Shown here piece after piece: positions 1 to 8,045 of a stretch of 64,000 nucleotides of DNA. Below the pieces are notes generated by a model. That model was given only the letters and a program-made list of their open reading frames with translations. It ran no database searches and was not told the origin of the DNA. Made by a program: the position numbers and the translations under genes. How positions within the stretch are numbered: the stretch's first letter is position 1; every line of letters starts with the position of its first letter. Origin of the DNA: Thalassospiraceae bacterium LMO-SO8 (lineage in GTDB: Bacteria; Pseudomonadota; Alphaproteobacteria; Rhodospirillales; Casp-alpha2); the NCBI GenBank assembly GCA_031655335.1, contig CP134226.1, forward strand, positions 992,001 to 1,056,000, in the 5' to 3' direction.

Positions 1-444
1 GAAGCGGAGGTCACCGGCGATACCGCCCCCGAGGTCTCCCTCGCCGTCGGCAAGGCGATCTTCCGCTACATCGACCAGAACCTGGCCGAACAGCTGCCCC
101 CCGAAACGCTGGCCAAGACCTTCCGCATTTCCCGCTCCCAGCTCTACCGTATCTTCGCACCCCACGACGGCGTTGCGCGTTATATCCTGGAACGGCGCCT
201 GCGGCGCAGCCTGCACATGCTGTCGAACCCGGCGAACGGCAACCTGAACATCGGCGCCATCGGGTACACCTGCGGGTTTTCCAGCGAGTCGCAGTTCAGC
301 AAATCGTTCAAGAACCGCTACGGGATGTCGCCCAGCGAGGCCCGCGCCATGGGTCAAGCCGTCGCAGCAACCGCCGCCGATCCCACGGCCGCGGGCGGCG
401 AGACGCCGGAATTCACCGCCTGGATCAGAAGCCTGGGCCGGTAA
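1..444 (+). CDS. AraC-family transcriptional regulator, C-terminal part
   Basis: The reading frame is open from the first base, so the gene starts upstream of the window. The visible 147 residues hold a double helix-turn-helix of the AraC/XylS type. A first HTH reads TLAKTFRISRSQLYRIF, and the second ends in the family signature GYTCGFSSESQFSKSFKNRY, followed by GMSPSEAR. The effector domain lies outside the window, so the signal cannot be named. A short low-complexity Ala/Gly tail follows the DNA-binding domain. The gene converges on the leader-peptide gene downstream, with a shared terminator between. Family assignment is secure; the function is unknown. Confidence 0.9.
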   Translation, partial: EAEVTGDTAPEVSLAVGKAIFRYIDQNLAEQLPPETLAKTFRISRSQLYRIFAPHDGVARYILERRLRRSLHMLSNPANGNLNIGAIGYTCGFSSESQFSKSFKNRYGMSPSEARAMGQAVAATAADPTAAGGETPEFTAWIRSLGR

Positions 445-462
445 TACGCCAGACTTTCATAA

Positions 463-500
463 AGAAAGCGCCCGCCCTCGGTCGAGGACGGGCGTTTCCT
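463..500. terminator. bidirectional rho-independent terminator
   Basis: Arms at 469-480 and 483-494 pair over 12 positions with one mismatch (the innermost pairs must open). TTTCCTT follows on the plus strand and CTTTCTTT on the minus strand. It sits between the convergent AraC-type gene and the first Nif11-type gene, so it can serve both. Confidence 0.75.
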
Positions 501-522: not shown

Positions 523-822
523 TTAGACAGCGCCGTCGATGCACGTCATTCCGGAAGGCGGGTGGTACATGGTCGCGCCAGCGGAGACCATCTCGAGTTC
601 GAACTCGGTCAGTTCGTCGTCGTTGGCGGCGAGCACGCGGAGTTCCCCAAATTTCTCGCAGGCCTCCTTGACGTCGTCCTCCTGCAAGGTGATGCCTACT
701 TCGGCGGCTTTATCGACGGCGATCGTATAAAATTCTTCCGCCGTTTTTCCCTCAGAGAGCGCTTCGATCAGACCTTTGTCGGTCCGCACCTTTTTGTAAA
801 ATTCAATGACATTCGCATTCAT
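523..822 (-). CDS. Nif11-type leader peptide, putative RiPP precursor (copy 1)
   Basis: A 99-residue protein. Residues 1 to about 80 form a Nif11-like leader (VIEFYKKVRTD, then an ALSEGKTAEEF segment), ending in ELEMVSAG, which resembles the double-glycine type cleavage site of such leaders. The remaining 17 residues form a short core with HPPSGMTCIDGAV and one Cys. The start at 822 is chosen because GGAGG lies at 830-834 just upstream; a longer frame to 861 has no such site. The leader is nearly the same as that of the gene at 1092-1412 while the cores differ, as is usual for ribosomally made, modified peptides. No modifying enzyme or transporter is visible within many kilobases. The product class is inferred; a non-RiPP role for Nif11 proteins is possible. 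Confidence 0.8.
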   Translation of the reverse strand: MNANVIEFYKKVRTDKGLIEALSEGKTAEEFYTIAVDKAAEVGITLQEDDVKEACEKFGELRVLAANDDELTEFELEMVSAGATMYHPPSGMTCIDGAV

Positions 823-894
823 TTTTGAACCTCCGTTCTGAAGCACTGTCCTAAACAGCAACCCTGCAACGCGGGCAGCCGCGAGAGCACGCGG
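823..894 (-). promoter_or_regulatory. conserved 5' leader of Nif11 gene copy 1
   Basis: Two blocks are repeated at the same distance before both Nif11-type genes: positions 831-855 (adjoining the ribosome binding site, same as 1421-1445) and 882-893 (CGCGTGCTCTCG on the minus strand, same as 1471-1482). The sequence between the blocks differs more. Retention of these blocks suggests a promoter, a regulator site or a leader RNA element. Confidence 0.5.
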
Positions 895-1022
895 CCCACC
901 CTGACCGGGTCACGCGCAAACCTTAACGGCGAACTTTCCCGAGGAGCCAGCCCATAAGCACCCCCGGGAACGCACCGACAATTAATTTGGAACGTAGGGA
1001 AAACTGGCCGCGCCCCTGCCGG

Positions 1023-1063
1023 ACCTTAAAATGAAAACGCCTGCACTCGGCTCAGTGCAGGCG
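1023..1063 (-). terminator. rho-independent terminator of Nif11 gene copy 2
   Basis: A perfect 10-base-pair stem (1038-1047 with 1054-1063, loop of six) is followed on the minus strand by TTTTCATTTTAA. It lies just after the stop of the second leader-peptide gene and isolates it from the first, so the two genes are probably transcribed separately. Confidence 0.85.
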
Positions 1064-1091
1064 CATCCATCAAGTCAAAACGGCGAAGCTT

Positions 1092-1412
1092 TTAGACCTG
1101 GCCCCCGATTCCGGTCAACCCGGACGGCCCGTAATAATTGCCACTTTCGTAGCCATTGAAAAAGCCACCCGCGGAGATCATCTCGAGTTCAAACTCGGTC
1201 AGCTCGTCGTCATTGGCGGCAAGCTTGCAAAGCTCCGCGAAATTGCCGCAGGCGGCGACAATGTCGTCCTGCTGCAAGGTGATGCCCATTTCGGCGGCCT
1301 TGTCGACGGCGGTCTTGATGAACTCTTCCGTCGTTTTTCCCTCAGAGAGCGCTTCGATCAGATTTTGGTCCGTGCGGACCTTTTTATAAAATTCGACAAC
1401 ATTCGTGTTCAT
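1092..1412 (-). CDS. Nif11-type leader peptide, putative RiPP precursor (copy 2)
   Basis: A 106-residue paralogue of the gene at 523-822. The leader is almost unchanged (VEFYKKVRTD, ALSEGKTTEEF, LAANDDELTEFELEMISAGG). After the ISAGG site comes a Gly/Tyr-rich core (FFNGYESGNYYGPSGLTG) that has no Cys. A lanthionine or sactionine product is therefore unlikely for this copy. Both cores keep a PSG-[ML]-T-x-I-x-G-x-V tail, which may be a recognition or modification site. The start at 1412 is set by GGAG upstream and by alignment with copy 1. It has its own conserved upstream block and its own terminator. Confidence 0.8.
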   Translation of the reverse strand: MNTNVVEFYKKVRTDQNLIEALSEGKTTEEFIKTAVDKAAEMGITLQQDDIVAACGNFAELCKLAANDDELTEFELEMISAGGFFNGYESGNYYGPSGLTGIGGQV

Positions 1413-1482: not shown

Positions 1483-2137
1483 TTCCGCCTTCGGCTGAAT
1501 CACGCCTCCACATAACCGCGCTTCACTGCATAAACCTAATGCTTTCGGAGATTCTGGACGCCGCGACCAGTGGTTTTGGACGTGAGGCACAGGAAAAGTA
1601 AATACGGGATGCCGGAGCCAGCGATTGATTTCTTGAAGGAGGGGAAGCCTCTCGTGGGCCGGATTGACGCCGCATGTCACCGCTTAAAAGCATTGGACGG
1701 CCACCGGCCATTCCGACCGCGACCGGTCGATGATGGACATTCGCGTCTTGGTGCCCGCGCCTGGCTTGGGCCAATAGCTTGGAACCCGGTGAATTCATTA
1801 AAGGATAGATGCCTGAAAAATCGCCTGGCATGCATTGACCCTTAAAATCTCGAGTCGTTTCCTACAAAACCGCCGAAAGCAGATTGTCGGACATTGGCAA
1901 CGTCATCCCGGGATGATTGCCAATCTGGCCTGTCCCCTTAATCGGATACACATCGATAGCCAGAGACGCTGTCCGCCTGAATTCCAGAGATAAGGGGAAA
2001 GGAGCACGGCACGGCCGCGATCAGGCGGCCGTCATCCAAAAATGCTTCCGTAAAATCAGGCCCGGCGCGGCGTCGAACACGTCACGAATCAGGCCGGGCG
2101 CGACCGTATCGGCGACGGCGATTCCTCGACAGGCTCT
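1483..2137. other. about 650 bases without a supported gene
   Basis: Short open frames occur on both strands, but none has a convincing ribosome binding site, codon pattern or recognisable family. Near 2060-2066 and 2093-2099 there is a GCCCGGC/GCCGGGC inverted repeat with a short T-run on the minus strand. It may terminate the gene at 2138-2566. Confidence 0.5.
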
Positions 2138-2566
2138 CTAGGGCCGGAAGTCCGGCGGCAGTTCCAGCCATGCCACGGCCTCGGCCACGTCTTCAAAAAT
2201 CTTGCGCTTCATGGCGGCCTTTCCGTCACGGGCATAGATCGCGTCACATACTCGCGCGGTGATCGCGAAGCGGTCGGCGGCGACGGTGTTGCCCCGTCGG
2301 TAAACGAAGGCCGCGGTCGCTGGATGGTCGAACATCTTGGCGATCTGGTAGCCCAGCACGTCGACGAAAGCACCCTGGGTGGAATCAAGCCCGGGGGCGG
2401 CCGTCAGGCCGTCGTCACAGACATAAAGCCGGCGCATGCCGGGGCTGAAGTCCGGTGCCTCGGCCAAATCACGCAGCGCATCCACCGTCTCCAACAGACT
2501 CGACTGCCCGAAGAGGGAAAAGCTGACAAGATTTTCGGCCTTATGAATTTTCCACGAAATGCCCAT
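2138..2566 (-). CDS. hypothetical protein, possibly SpoIIAA/STAS-like
   Basis: 142 residues with no signal peptide or membrane segment. The N-terminal layout (ISWKIHKAENLVSFSLFG, then a helix, then a strand RRLYVCDDGL) and the alternation of strands and helices suit the SpoIIAA-like fold found in small bacterial regulators. There is no sequence motif that proves it. It lies next to a LuxR-type response regulator on the same strand, 39 bases downstream, so co-transcription is possible. The function is unknown. Confidence 0.55.
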   Translation of the reverse strand: MGISWKIHKAENLVSFSLFGQSSLLETVDALRDLAEAPDFSPGMRRLYVCDDGLTAAPGLDSTQGAFVDVLGYQIAKMFDHPATAAFVYRRGNTVAADRFAITARVCDAIYARDGKAAMKRKIFEDVAEAVAWLELPPDFRP

Positions 2567-2605
2567 AGCGGCCTGTGTTCATAAGGGTCAGTAATGTCCT
2601 TGCAC

Positions 2606-3238
2606 CTAGCCCCTCGAAACAAGTCCTCGTTCGCGGGCGATCACGGCCGCCTGCGAACGGTTCTGCACGCCGATTTTCTTGAAGATGCTGCGTGCGTGCA
2701 GTTTCACCGTGACTTCGTGGATTTCCAGGTCACGGGCGATCTGCTTATTCGGTTTTCCGTCGGCGATGCCTTCAAGCACCTCCATCTCGCGGGGCGTCAA
2801 GCCTTCCGCATTGACCTTGCGGTCCGCCGCCTCGGCGGCCATTGCCTGCATGGTTTCCACGGGCACGTAAGTGCCACCCTCGGCGATCACGCGAAGGGCC
2901 CCCGCATAGGCGGACCCGGTTAAGGTTTTCGGAAGATAGCCATGGGCGCCGAGATCCAGAACGGTCTTCACATCCCGTGTCTTGGCGACGCCGGAAGTCA
3001 CGGCAATGGCCAAATCCGGATAGGCGGCGCGAAGCCGCTTGACCCCTTCCGTGCCGTCCATCCCGGGCATGGAAAAGTCCAGGACCACAAGGTCGTACTT
3101 CCCCTTGCCCGAAAGCCTGGCCGTCACTTCGTCGAGGTTGGATGCCGCCTGAATTTCAACATCGGGGAAGGCGCGGTTGAGATGCTCACGCACCGCGTCG
3201 AGAAACATCGGATGGTCATCGGCGAACAGCAATCGCAT
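2606..3238 (-). CDS. LuxR/NarL-family response regulator
   Basis: 210 residues. The receiver domain (about 1-120) has the acidic pair DDH near the N-terminus, the phosphoacceptor in VVLDFSMPGMDG, a Ser/Thr switch in AVTSG and the conserved Lys in YLPKTL. A C-terminal GerE-type HTH follows (LTPREMEVLEGIADGKPNKQ, VKLHARSIFKKIG). Such proteins bind DNA after phosphorylation by a histidine kinase. No kinase gene adjoins it; the giant hybrid kinase at 8254-14509 is the nearest candidate partner. Palindromes at 3297-3333, 60-95 bases upstream, could be its own binding sites. Confidence 0.9.
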   Translation of the reverse strand: MRLLFADDHPMFLDAVREHLNRAFPDVEIQAASNLDEVTARLSGKGKYDLVVLDFSMPGMDGTEGVKRLRAAYPDLAIAVTSGVAKTRDVKTVLDLGAHGYLPKTLTGSAYAGALRVIAEGGTYVPVETMQAMAAEAADRKVNAEGLTPREMEVLEGIADGKPNKQIARDLEIHEVTVKLHARSIFKKIGVQNRSQAAVIARERGLVSRG

Positions 3239-3296: not shown

Positions 3297-3333
3297 CATA
3301 CCTAAGTATGCCCGAAACACATACTTAGGTCGA
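3297..3333. promoter_or_regulatory. palindromic operator-like sites upstream of the LuxR-type regulator
   Basis: CATACCTAAGTATG at 3297-3310 is an imperfect 14-base palindrome, and CATACTTAGGT at 3320-3330 is a second, partial copy in the opposite sense. Close relatives occur at 5910-5923 (13 of 14 positions), 8222-8235 and 17151-17163, all near starts of signalling genes. Confidence 0.5.
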
Positions 3334-3400
3334 TACCGAACAAACAATCGGAATCCGGCCCCCGAAGCGCCGCTTTCCGCCCCGGCATAACCGATGAGGC

Positions 3401-3439
3401 GAAAAACAAATCCCGACCGGCGCCGCGGCGCCGATCGGG
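3401..3439 (-). terminator. terminator after the PDC/MCP operon
   Basis: Arms 3412-3424 and 3427-3439 form a long GC-rich hairpin with one internal mismatch pair. On the minus strand ATTTGTTTTTCG follows. It lies about 45 bases beyond the MCP stop. Confidence 0.75.
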
Positions 3440-3472
3440 GTTCCGGAGAACGGAGGAGGAAGGGTTTGTCTT

Positions 3473-4330
3473 GGCCGCTTCCTTAAGCAGCCCGCACATC
3501 ATGCAGGAAGGTCTGCACGATCTGCTGTAGGGAGGACGACTTCTGCGCCAGTTCGTCGGACGCGTGCAGAACCTCGGAGGCCGAACCGTCGGTGTCGTTG
3601 GCGGCGACCTGCACGCTTGAGATCGAGCTGGAAACCTCCTGCGTCGCGGCCGCGCCTGTTCGCAGTTGCGGCTGATCTCCTGGGTCGCGGCCGCCTGTTC
3701 CTCGACCGCGGCGGCCACGGCGGCCGTCATCTCGTTGACCTCGGAGATGGTCGCCTTGATCAGGTTGATGGCGTTCGCCGCCTCGCCCGTCGTCGACTGG
3801 ATCTTGGCGACATGGGCCGCCACTTCCTCCGTCGACCGTTTGGTCTGGGCCGCCAGGTTCTTGACCTCCGACGCGACCACGCGAAGCCCTTGCCGGCCTC
3901 GCCGGCGCGCGCCGCCTCGATGGTGGCGTTGAGCGACAGCAGGTTGGTCTTCTCGGCGATCTCGTTGATCAGCTCGACCACCTGGCCGATCGCCTGGGCC
4001 GCCTCGACAAGGCCGTCGACCTTGCCCTGGACCTGATCGGCCTCGGTCACCGCCTGGCCGGCCTTTTGCGAGGACCGCGCCATCTGCTGGGTGATCTCGC
4101 GGACCGACGCGGTCAGTTCTTCCGTCGCCGTCGCCACCGTCTGCACGTTGGCCGCCGTCTGTTCGCAGGCCGCCGCCACCGACGAGGACTGGCGGGTCGT
4201 CGTTTCCGCCGTGCCGCGCATGCTGGTCGCCGTCGCCTGAAGTTCCGTCGAGGCCGACGACACCACGCCGAGCACCTCGCTCACCGTCGCGTCGAAGGCC
4301 GTCGTCAGCGCCGCAAGCTTCTGCGCGCGT
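3473..4330. repeat. near-identical MCP signalling-domain repeat, copy A
   Basis: This stretch matches 6021-6879 almost base for base, with only scattered substitutions plus single-base gaps. It covers the whole cytoplasmic signalling domain and stops abruptly where the HAMP-proximal coiled coil begins. The N-terminal halves of the two receptors are unrelated. Recent duplication or ongoing gene conversion would explain it. Confidence 0.9.
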
Positions 4331-5165
4331 TCCAACTGAGCCTGCTGATCCTTCAACTGCTGAGCCTGAAGGTCGCGGTTCTCGATCAGGCGCTGGCGGA
4401 AGAATTCCACCGAACGCGCCATGTTGCCGATCTCGTCCTTGCGCGCCTGGCCCTCGGTTTCCGTGTCGTAGTCCCCTTCGGCCATGTCTTCCATGAACCG
4501 GGCCATGGCGTCGATCGGACGCGCGATGCCGCGCGACAACGTCAGCCAGGCCAGAACGGCGAACACCAGGGCGATGACCGTGCCGAGAAGCAGGCTGATC
4601 AGCGTCACCTTGAATTCGCCGGCCACGGCATCACGGTTCTTGTCCATCAGGCCGACCGCAAGTTGCTTCAGGGCGTCGAAGCTTTCGAACGCCTTGGCGA
4701 TCCCCTGCTCGCCGTAACCGTTGGCTTCGAGAACCCGGGCTTCATCCACGGTGAAGCGTTGACGCATCAACGTGATCTGCCGATCGACGATCGTGTCCTG
4801 CCATTTGCGGACATGGGTGTCGGCGGCCAGCAAGTACTGCTTCGCCGCGGGCACGGTCAACCGGGCCTGTAGCTTTCCGATCTTGTCCAGATAACCGGCC
4901 TTGGCCGTGTTGTAAGACGTGATGTAATCCCGGTTGCCACTGATCAGCAGACCGCGGATGGAAGCCTGCTGTGCCGCGACAAGGGCGCGGACCTCTTCGA
5001 GTTCCAGGACGATGGTGTTGATGCGCGCCGTATCGTCGACCTGGTTCTGGGCCTTATTGGTATTGACCGCGGTCACCCCGGCCAGCGCGCGCCGATGATG
5101 ACGACCAGGGTCAGAAAGGCGGCAATCAGCTTCTTTGAGATTGTGATATTGTTGATCGCGTTCAT
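3483..5165 (-). pseudogene. methyl-accepting chemotaxis protein with three frame breaks
   Basis: The restored product is a membrane chemoreceptor of about 560 residues: first membrane segment ([12 protein letters not shown]), a CHASE3-like periplasmic domain ([11 protein letters not shown]), second membrane segment, HAMP, and an MCP signalling domain with the hairpin tip [13 protein letters not shown]. The start at 5165 has GAGGAT upstream. Frame changes occur near 5088 (inside the first membrane segment), near 3886 and near 3655. The last two are single missing bases when compared with the near-identical MCP at 6031-8045. The PDC-sensor gene is 17 bases upstream, so the two probably form one operon. 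The breaks may be real inactivation or sequence errors; the second receptor's breaks fall elsewhere. Confidence 0.8.
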
Positions 5166-6020: not shown

Positions 6021-6879
6021 GGCCGCTTTCTTAAGCAGCCCGCACATCATGCAGGAAGGTCTGCACGATCTGCTGTAGGGAGGACGACTTCTGCGCCAGT
6101 TCGTCGGACGCGTGCAGAACCTCGGAGGCCGAACCATCGGTGTCGTTGGCGGCGACCTGCACGCTTGAGATCGAGCTGGAAACCTCCTGCGTCGCGGCCG
6201 CGGCCTGTTCGCAGTTGCGGCTGATCTCCTGGGTCGCGGCCGCCTGTTCCTCGACCGCGGCGGCCACGGCGGCCGTCATCTCGTTGACCTCGGAGATGGT
6301 CGCCTTGATCAGGTTGATGGCGTTCGCCGCCTCGCCCGTCGTCGACTGGATCTTGGCGACATGGGCCGCCACTTCCTCCGTCGACCGTTTGGTCTGGGCC
6401 GCCAGGTTCTTGACCTCCGACGCGACCACCGCGAAGCCCTTGCCGGCCTCGCCGGCGCGCGCCGCCCGATGGTGGCGTTGAGCGACAGCAGGTTGGTCTT
6501 CTCGGCGATCTCGTTGATCAGTTCCACCACCTGGCCGATCGCCTGGGCCGCCTCGACAAGGCCGTCGACCTTGCCCTGGACCTGATCGGCCTCGGTCACC
6601 GCCTGGCCGGCCTTTTGCGAGGACCGCGCCATCTGCTGGGTGATCTCGCGGACCGACGCGGTCAGTTCTTCCGTCGCCGTCGCCACCGTCTGCACGTTGG
6701 TCGCCGTCTGCTCGCAGGCCGCCGCCACCGACGAGGACTGGCGGGTCGTCGTTTCCGCCGTGCCGCGCATGCTGGTCGCCGTCGCCTGAAGTTCCGTCGA
6801 GGCCGACGACACCACGCCGAGCACCTCGCTCACCGTCGCGTCGAAGGCCGTCGTCAGCGCCGCAAGCTTCTGCGCACGT
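6021..6879. repeat. near-identical MCP signalling-domain repeat, copy B
   Basis: Partner of 3473-4330. Relative to copy A it keeps the bases missing near 3655 and 3886 but lacks one base near 6468, so each copy can be used to correct the other. Confidence 0.9.
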
Positions 6880-8045
6880 TCGACCTGCCGTTCTTGCGCC
6901 TTGCGTTGCTCTTCTTCCAGTTCCTTGGCGCGGATCAGGTTTTCCTTGAACACCTGAAGGGCCCGCGCGACGGCGCCGATCTCGTCCTTGTTCTCAAGGG
7001 CTGGGATTTGAACGGTCCAATCGCCTTCGGCCAGGGTTTCCGTGGCTTCGGTGACCGCCTTCACCGGACGGGTGATGCTCATCGCGACGGCGGCGCCGAC
7101 GGCGACGAACACGGCGAAGATCACCACGGATCCGATCAACATCAGCCGGCCCATGGATGTCTGCGTTTCGTGCATGGTGACAAGCGCCTGCTTGGCGCCC
7201 TGCTCACCGAACGCGACCAATTCCTCGACGGCCGGGGTCACGATCTTATAGATGGTGCTGAGTTCGCTGATGGCGGCCTCGTTTTCGACGCTCAGTTTGG
7301 CGAAGGCATCGAACGCGGTCACATAGTCGTCCAGAAGCTTGGTGATCTCGGCCTTGGCACCATCAGGCAGCGGCGTCTCGGGCAGCATGGCCAGAAATTC
7401 GGCCCGGCGCTTGGCCACGCTGTCGATATATTTTTCGGCGCCGCGCAGCATGAAATCCTTCTCGTGCCGGCGCATCATCAACATCTTGACCGTCAGGCCG
7501 TCCAGCTTGGCTTCGTTCAGCTTCGTTTCCACGGCATGGACGGCGCTGCGCAGCTTGCCCTGAAGACCCGCCTTTTCATCCAGACCCAGTTCCTGGATCT
7601 GCGCGACGACCGTGGCGAACTGTTTCTCATGGGCTTTGACGGCGCCCTCCAAGCGAGACAGCGTTTCCGCCTTGGCGTCGGCCACATGCTCCTTGCGGAC
7701 CGCGTCCAGAACGGATGTCAATTTCGCGACATTGCCTTGGTAGGCTTCCGCGTACTTCATCTCGCGGCGCAGCAGGAAATCCTTTTCCGCTCGGCGCATT
7801 TGCAGGGACTGGGATTGGATTTCCTGACTTTCCTGCGCCAGGGCGTTGTAGTCGGTATTCGACTTGACGGCCTTGGCGGTCATCGACTGGCCATAGACCT
7901 GAATGCCGCCGAACACGGCCATCGCCACGACGCCCAGAATGACGATGGCGCTCACGCGCTGTGCGATCTTGAAGTTGCCGAACAGGGTCTTGGCCGCGAT
8001 CGCGCCGTTCCCGCCCGTGTCATTCTGCGAATTTACCTGTGACAT
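6031..8045 (-). pseudogene. methyl-accepting chemotaxis protein, HBM-type sensor, one frame break
   Basis: The restored product is about 670 residues. A cytoplasmic N-terminal stretch is followed by a membrane segment, a long helical periplasmic domain with two MRR-x-EKDF-[ML]-LR motifs typical of the helical bimodular (HBM) sensor, a second membrane segment, HAMP (SITRPVKAVTEA) and the MCP signalling domain. The start at 8045 is preceded by GGAGG and AGAGGAA. One base is missing near 6468 within the motif [15 protein letters not shown], as copy A shows. Without that break it would be a complete receptor. It has its own promoter region and terminator. Confidence 0.85.

Follow-up and report, generated by a model that had tools for sequence, protein, structure and literature searches.

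Two precursor genes at the left end of the window

The stretch of DNA analyzed here, hereafter the window, is a 64-kb segment of the genome of Thalassospiraceae bacterium LMO-SO8 (G000; 3.98 Mb, a single contig), corresponding to G000:C1:992001-1056000. Close to its left end lie two adjacent genes that very probably encode leader-core precursors of short exported peptides. An earlier note, made from the window alone, had described them as an orphan pair with constant leaders and divergent tails, of the type that gives rise to ribosomally synthesized and post-translationally modified peptides (RiPPs). The sequence supports both the pair and the leader-core organization; the description as orphans does not hold, as set out below. 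The features of the two genes are as follows.

523..822, minus strand: precursor A, 99 aa, with an 82-aa Nif11-like leader ending ELEMVSAG and a 17-aa core, ATMYHPPSGMTCIDGAV
1092..1412, minus strand: precursor B, 106 aa, with an 82-aa leader ending ELEMISAG and a 24-aa core, GFFNGYESGNYYGPSGLTGIGGQV
830..834, minus strand: Shine-Dalgarno-like GGAGG of precursor A, read from the sequence
469..494, minus strand: terminator-like hairpin of 11 pairs, 3' of the precursor A stop codon
1037..1064, minus strand: terminator-like hairpin of 11 pairs, 3' of the precursor B stop codon

A Shine-Dalgarno-like GGAG precedes the ATG of both genes. Terminator-like sites numbered three between positions 400 and 1700, with 2.1 expected from shuffled sequence, and a scan of the same interval for a sigma-70-type promoter found none. 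Both proteins match TIGR03798, the model of the Nif11-like leader (A, 26.5 bits, E 5.7e-6; B, 28.9 bits, E 1e-6), on which three relatives' precursors score 17.6, 30.0 and 30.9 bits; the Pfam Nif11 model gives E values of 0.0086 and 0.0008 for A and B, both under its cut-off. An AlphaFold2 model of A, based on an alignment of nine sequences and of modest overall confidence (predicted local distance difference test, pLDDT, 64.7), forms a helix through residue 82 and falls below a pLDDT of 50 from residue 82 on, such that the proposed cleavage boundary falls where the predicted helix stops. The earlier note had suggested looking for further leaders of this kind elsewhere in the genome, and a search of G000 to E 1 returned none besides A and B.

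Precursors A and B share 77% of their leader residues (63 of 82) and 47% of the residues aligned in the tail (8 of 17), an excess of tail differences with p = 0.017; for A and its G001 counterpart, G001_A, the corresponding value is p = 0.0006. Among ten precursor pairs drawn from five relatives (pairs that are not independent of one another, and a set that leaves one G005 precursor outside), differences were concentrated in the tail or core in nine, with p from 1.8e-5 to 0.022. Counting against tail divergence are the B orthologues of G000 and G001, the tails of which are 83% identical and do not differ significantly from the leader (p = 0.21). In the five genomes that encode the fatty acyl-AMP ligase (FAAL) protein described below (G000, G001, G005, G478 and G641), all 11 leaders found end in [SA]AG, a variant of the Gly-type motif that has AG and not GG, followed by a variable short core; the three leaders of a sixth genome, G437, end in AAA or AAAG. 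Precursors of G478 and G641 were sought in the fetched loci only.

The cores range from 10 to 24 residues. A serine-glycine (SG) dipeptide occurs in 9 of the 11 cores of the FAAL genomes and in none of the three in G437, a comparison made post hoc; with G001 set aside it occurs in 7 of 9 cores, with a mean of 2.2 in 20,000 shuffles (p 0.0004, for a motif chosen after the cores had been seen). As the earlier note had stated, one G000 core contains Cys and the other does not. The same apparent pattern, a single Cys-bearing core among those found, recurs in every one of the five FAAL genomes, and all three G437 cores contain Cys. The same note had taken conservation of the C-terminal region in distant species as a sign of an ordinary small protein, and such conservation is found weakly: the tails vary by species, yet the SG dipeptide recurs, and G478 (LPINCSSGAVRMQ) and G641 (LPINSSSGATEMS), which belong to two different families, have similar cores. 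Ordinary small intracellular proteins, each with a helical main part followed by a flexible tail, would be consistent with the conserved leaders and with their predicted helicity. We consider this explanation very improbable, given the concentration of differences in the tails, the NHLM exporter cassettes that accompany genes of this kind in six genomes, and a predicted operator common to the precursors and the cassette.

An export cassette adjoins the precursors

A search of G000 with the NHLM HlyD model gave one match above cut-off (989869-991071, 304 bits), about 0.9 kb to the left of the window. The gene it identifies is the first of a series that reads away from the window, divergently from an AraC-family regulator gene whose 3' part lies inside it.

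G000:C1:991146-989827, minus strand: HlyD; TIGR03794 305.5 bits (cut-off 156.2); starts about 0.85 kb left of window base 1
G000:C1:989826-987622, minus strand: C39/ABC1; TIGR03796 1009 bits (cut-off 853.3), Peptidase_C39 114.7 bits
G000:C1:987641-984678, minus strand: ABC2; TIGR03797 824 bits (cut-off 709.4)
G000:C1:984654-984109, minus strand: cyclic-nucleotide-binding (cNMP) protein; TIGR03896 129.5 bits, under the cut-off of 161
G000:C1:984100-980663, minus strand: 1145-aa protein, FAAL-PCP-E (see below), the last gene of the operon
G000:C1:991395-992444, plus strand (window -605 to 444; in-window 1..444): AraC-family regulator; the Pfam domains HTH_18 and HTH_AraC are over cut-off

The five genes on the minus strand (991146-980663) are separated by 0-23 bases or overlap by 20, so they likely form a single operon, in which the three NHLM export models TIGR03794, TIGR03796 and TIGR03797 all score above cut-off. 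A cassette of this kind directly to the left of the window excludes orphan precursors. The earlier statement that no peptidase-transporter lies near is correct inside the window and fails immediately beyond it; the genes seem orphaned because the window is cut where it is, and an edge of this sort can turn part of an ordinary cassette into a seeming orphan.

The earlier note had also judged lanthionine chemistry unlikely, and this is supported by a genome-wide search for LanM (TIGR03897, E 0.01), which gave no match. A genome-wide search for YcaO (PF02624, E 0.01) likewise gave none, and both enzymes were discarded as maturases acting in trans. A maturase encoded elsewhere (a radical SAM enzyme, a class III lanthionine synthetase or another) could nevertheless modify the cores, since Nif11 precursors unclustered with their genome's LanM have been reported in PMC2887384. 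We regard such a trans-acting enzyme as improbable, because the genome-wide searches, which covered LanM and YcaO but neither radical SAM nor class III enzymes, gave no match and because the cassette has an enzyme of its own. Where the earlier note left a choice between a maturase in trans and unfamiliar chemistry, it is the second half that may hold, the only recognizable tailoring-type enzyme of the cassette being FAAL-PCP-E. In L010, the locus that holds the cassette, ORFs of 200 aa or more were read by eye.

A predicted operator is common to the precursors and the operon

A word resembling TTTGGRACG was first seen by eye in upstream regions, and all 9-mers were then enumerated over 16 regulatory regions, with G000 and G001 counted once and up to one mismatch allowed. 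The top 9-mer, TTTGGGACG, occurs in 9 of the 16 regions; among 100 Markov-1 simulations none reached 9 and four reached 8. GACAA, with up to one mismatch, lies four bases 5' of the word in seven of these nine regions, and on visual inspection the site resembles a pair of direct repeats with a spacing of about 21 bases. AraC-type proteins commonly bind direct repeats. A 40-bp matrix trained on four sites of other genomes (two from G478, one from G641 and one from G005) places the following sites in the window.

966..1005, plus strand: predicted AraC operator 5' of precursor A, a direct repeat with a GACAA-N4-TTTGGAACG core; 30.2 bits, the best score in the 64-kb window
1554..1593, plus strand: weaker predicted AraC operator 5' of precursor B; 12.2 bits, second in the window (the third scores 6.4)

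The AraC-HlyD gap of G000 scores 29.6 bits, the top place in the locus L010, and the equivalent places in G001 score 29.6, 20.8 and 16.5 bits. Two further expected places in G641, itself the source of one training site, reach 28.7 and 26.5 bits, and two in G437 reach 20.4 and 13.2; no matrix site was found for G437 precursors 2 and 3. The best score in 42 control loci (780,719 bases) was 12.9, and the AT-rich G641 has three intragenic scores of 14.4-14.6. A loose pattern, GACAA-N4-TTTGGRACG with up to three mismatches, is not above chance (9 observed and 9.5 expected in the window; 2 and 3.3 in L010). Information comes from the longer matrix and from matches that are exact or nearly so. A comparison of the precursor upstream region with the AraC-HlyD gap by 18-base direct match, in which one match reached 15 of 18, was superseded by the 9-mer enumeration. 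On the strength of these predicted sites, we find it highly probable that the precursors and the export operon form one AraC regulon.

The last gene of the operon encodes a FAAL-PCP-E protein

The 1145-aa protein combines a FAAL, a phosphopantetheine carrier (PCP) and a domain of the Pfam Condensation family. Its FAAL part scores 416.7 bits on 7r7g (labelled a polyketide synthase), 344 on 3kxw and 259 on FadD23 among solved chains, but at most 155 bits on amino-acid adenylation domains, and NCBIfam fatty-acid-AMP ligase models rank among its best. The FAAL domains of the five genomes form one clade (100/99), separate from 10 other FAALs of the class. A profile of the last domain, built from the five relatives, gives 180-193 bits on the epimerization (E)-domain chains of gramicidin S, tyrocidine and bacitracin synthetases and no more than 52 on the remaining chains. 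Foldseek, searched with a model of this domain (pLDDT 65), places the same E-domain chains at the top, with template-modeling scores of about 0.55-0.59 and root-mean-square deviations above 9. TIGR01720, a model associated with E domains, matches the last domain under its cut-off in four of the five relatives. These comparisons suggest that the last domain is of the epimerization type of nonribosomal peptide synthetases (NRPSs) and not of the condensation type, the protein thus reading FAAL-PCP-E. A condensation domain that simply amidates was considered and dropped, because the E domains of PvdL, tyrocidine, gramicidin S and bacitracin synthetases score far above C domains.

The motifs TSGST, TGD and RTTSGK of the FAAL, G[LI]DSL of the PCP, and HHxxxD and E..GR are conserved in all five proteins. 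The last two correspond to named motifs of E domains: HHxxxD keeps its His and Asp in every protein, and the EGHGR-like motif keeps its Glu. By sequence, the catalytic motifs of the FAAL and the PCP are intact, and so are His and Glu in the E-type domain. A domain scan of the protein detected neither a true condensation domain nor one for amino-acid adenylation. The condensation-family domain of this protein is the only one detected in any of the five FAAL genomes, and none was detected in G437. In a nonribosomal lipopeptide synthetase, condensation and amino-acid adenylation domains follow FAAL-PCP; here the one condensation-family domain detected in the genome is of E type, and the scan for adenylation domains covered this protein alone.

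Distribution of the cassette and the enzyme

Among 61 genomes searched for precursors (G000 and relatives), matches were confined to G000, G001 and G005. A search for HlyD in 317 genomes of the order, 14 of which matched at 1e-90, added G478 and G641, the nearest outside the genus, and a sample of the class (385 genomes, 27 with an NHLM ABC1 at 1e-200; G005, G478 and G641 lie outside the sample) added G437. The order AraC, HlyD, ABC1, ABC2, cNMP, FAAL-PCP-E is identical in G000, G005 and G478. In G001 one contig stops within ABC1 and another begins within ABC1 and continues through ABC2, cNMP and FAAL-PCP-E. In G641 one contig carries cNMP to AraC plus a precursor at the contig end, and a second carries a precursor, a fused C39-ABC-ABC protein (1431 aa), a 163-aa protein, FAAL-PCP-E and another precursor.

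We read 50 NHLM loci, in two sets of 34 and 16. A close AraC homologue is present in three of them (G437, G478 and G641), and locus L075 has one at 29% identity. No E-type or PCP part was found in the 47 other NHLM loci, many of which are stretches that break off within 10 kb or where the contig stops; one of the 47, L096, has an AMP-ligase match at 25% identity. The FAAL-PCP-E protein is thus present in five of six AraC-type cassettes and in none of the 47 others (Fisher 2e-6, a value that is misleading owing to relatedness), which rules out the FAAL as a general partner of NHLM exporters. In the class sample, with two candidates scored per genome, the FAAL protein has a match at 1e-120 in 11 of the 385 genomes, and in G000 alone the match covers its full length. 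Plasmid records matching the protein number 156, none covering more than 80% of it, and among the 20 matches listed most are NRPSs; six plasmid records carry a related HlyD.

Fused C39-ABC1-ABC2 NHLM polypeptides of 1360-1431 aa occur at L020 15435-19517, L127+L128 19221-23429 and L151 402-4697, near precursors or FAAL-PCP-E, and two of the three were confirmed with models. The fusion was rejected as a hallmark of FAAL genomes, since proteins of similar length and N-terminus were seen by eye in loci without a FAAL.

A proposed pathway and its alternatives

The precursors, the cassette, the spacing of the operon, the conserved site and the intact motifs are seen in the sequence itself; the cleavage point, the acceptor, the identity of the acyl group, its transfer by the E-type domain and the biological role belong to a pathway that we infer. 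The AraC regulator would act at the predicted sites 5' of both precursors and 5' of the divergent five-gene operon, and would switch the precursors and the operon on jointly. The leader would guide each precursor to the enzyme and the pump. Before export, the FAAL would adenylate a fatty acid and load it onto the PCP, and the E-type domain would either deliver the acyl group to the core, perhaps to the Ser of the recurrent SG, or tailor the core in another way. The C39 domain would then cut after ...SAG during export, and the pump would release cores of 17 and 24 residues. Because cleavage would be coupled to export, a side chain such as the Ser of SG should be easier to reach than the core N-terminus.

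We lean, by a narrow preference, toward the overall proposal that NHLM/C39-exported peptides are probably tailored, and most likely acylated, by FAAL-PCP-E. That this enzyme acts on the peptides at all we hold with similarly restrained confidence, and that the modification is an acylation falls slightly on the doubtful side of an even judgment. A more specific version is tentative: a stripped-down PvdL-like NRPS starter would have been recruited to Nif11-leader peptides, with the E-type domain as the acyl-transferring or tailoring catalyst, giving a FAAL route to lipidated RiPPs in which PCP-bound fatty acids replace acyl-CoA and GNAT, within an AraC-controlled export regulon of at least two peptides.

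Several observations weigh against this proposal, the chemistry of which is inferred. The weakest step is the action of the E-type domain on an acyl chain. On one PvdL chain the five-relative profile gives 205 bits on the first stretch (E2) and 31 on the second (C3), the Gly of HHxxxDG is replaced by Ala or Val in all five proteins, and epimerization would find no stereocentre in a plain fatty acyl thioester; the domain could transfer the acyl group, epimerize an alpha-substituted one or be a remnant. A C39 cut coupled to export would leave little chance to acylate the core N-terminus, and Lys occurs only in two G641 cores and in neither G000 core. Matches in G342 (13-1010) and G413 (11-909 of 1151) span the FAAL into the condensation-family part, and related domain orders therefore exist elsewhere. 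With respect to the precursors, neither A nor B reaches the curated TIGR03798 cut-off of 32.3 bits, and five of the eight same-genus genomes (G000 counted; completeness 83-99%) have no precursor match. With respect to the regulon, site B (12.2 bits) scores below the best control, the G005 precursor region and the G478 AraC-HlyD gap score only 9.3 and 7.7, and GACAA is missing from these same two of the nine regions. Finally, G437 has an AraC cassette and three precursors without a detected condensation-family domain, which indicates that FAAL-PCP-E is dispensable.

This last genome also speaks for an alternative in which export releases the peptides without modification, to serve as short signals or as bacteriocin-like peptides, and FAAL-PCP-E makes a separate co-regulated lipid, for example a co-signal. 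The shortness of the cores and the E-type, rather than acyl-transferring C-type, nature of the last domain fit this alternative as well. We nevertheless think it rather unlikely: FAAL-PCP-E lies within the export operon in G000, G005 and G478 and between two precursors in G641, and no NRPS partner is apparent, its condensation-family domain being the sole one detected in the genome. In addition, a family scan found a tandem GNAT gene (L077 15190-16119) adjoining the three Nif11 precursors of G437, and it is possible that this GNAT substitutes as acyltransferase for FAAL-PCP-E.

Genomic surroundings

A Tn7-like module (TniQ, TnsA, TnsB-like, TniB/TnsC-like) lies at G000:C1:973494-978216 (L010 1494-6216), about 2.4 kb past the end of the FAAL gene, and between the two is an IS1595-looking transposase, recognized by eye (L010 6763-7650). 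The export cassette may be mobile cargo. A remnant resembling the start of TniQ is present 5' of precursor B in both G000 (window 1570-1845) and a relative's contig (L003 6629-6868), with 47% identity over 30 and 58% over 38 residues; the Pfam TniQ model matches the L003 copy only (E 0.003, below cut-off). Next to the precursors (window 2138-3238) are genes for a LuxR-type response regulator and for a 142-aa protein that has no Pfam match, and their homologues are adjacent in L003. Farther into the window, two chemotaxis-receptor-like genes (3302-5076 and 6031-8045) have, by eye, near-identical C-terminal parts and are each split over two frames, for which frameshift, gene conversion or assembly error are candidate explanations.

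Comparison with known systems

If the proposed acylation is correct, it would join carrier-protein lipid loading in the style of NRPSs to ribosomal peptides, of which few fatty-acylated kinds are known, and it would add a variant to those described in the parts of PMC9505594 and PMC13060382 used here, in which the known enzymes are GNATs. It would also call for an explanation of how an epimerization-type domain handles a fatty acyl chain, in a small system of one candidate enzyme, two precursors and one regulator with a predicted operator. Nothing listed in the literature searched, which leaves out most subscription papers, resembles a report of FAAL-based RiPP acylation. A term search of a 2025 FAAL review (PMC11837247) found RiPPs unmentioned; there, as in PMC8460268, 'ripp' occurs once, inside an author name.

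The precursors and exporter are of the known Nif11/NHLM kind described by Haft, Basu and Mitchell (2010; PMC2887384), and the new part would be the link to FAAL-PCP-E, with its proposed chemistry. Shared with those systems (TIGR03794/03796/03797 and TIGR03798) are the same three export proteins over cut-off, Nif11-like leaders, a Gly-type cleavage motif and short variable cores. The differences here are the lack of a YcaO or LanM match, leaders just under the TIGR03798 cut-off, [SA]AG in place of GG, and the presence of AraC and FAAL-PCP-E.

PvdL-type lipopeptide synthetases have a FAAL-PCP start module and an E domain. The protein resembles them in that the NRPS model PRK05691 matches its FAAL part as well as its E-type part and in that the E-type part best fits E2 of solved PvdL chains; it is unlike them in having no true condensation or amino-acid adenylation domain, and a second condensation-family domain was not detected anywhere in the genome.

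In the available text of PMC9505594 and PMC13060382, fatty-acylated RiPPs arise through GNATs or as hybrids with polyketides, and prenylated ones are also named there. Lipolanthines (microvionin), goadvionins and lipoavitides likewise carry a lipid chain on a ribosomal peptide. Selidamides and nostolysamides are GNAT-acylated NHLP/Nif11 RiPPs, lanthipeptides acylated on ornithine or lysine, and phaeornamide is an alphaproteobacterial example of this GNAT-acylated kind. The system described here resembles selidamides and nostolysamides in placing a lipid-type enzyme beside an NHLP/Nif11 precursor and a peptidase-type exporter, and differs from them in having FAAL-PCP-E, no LanM match and cores in the window that lack Lys.
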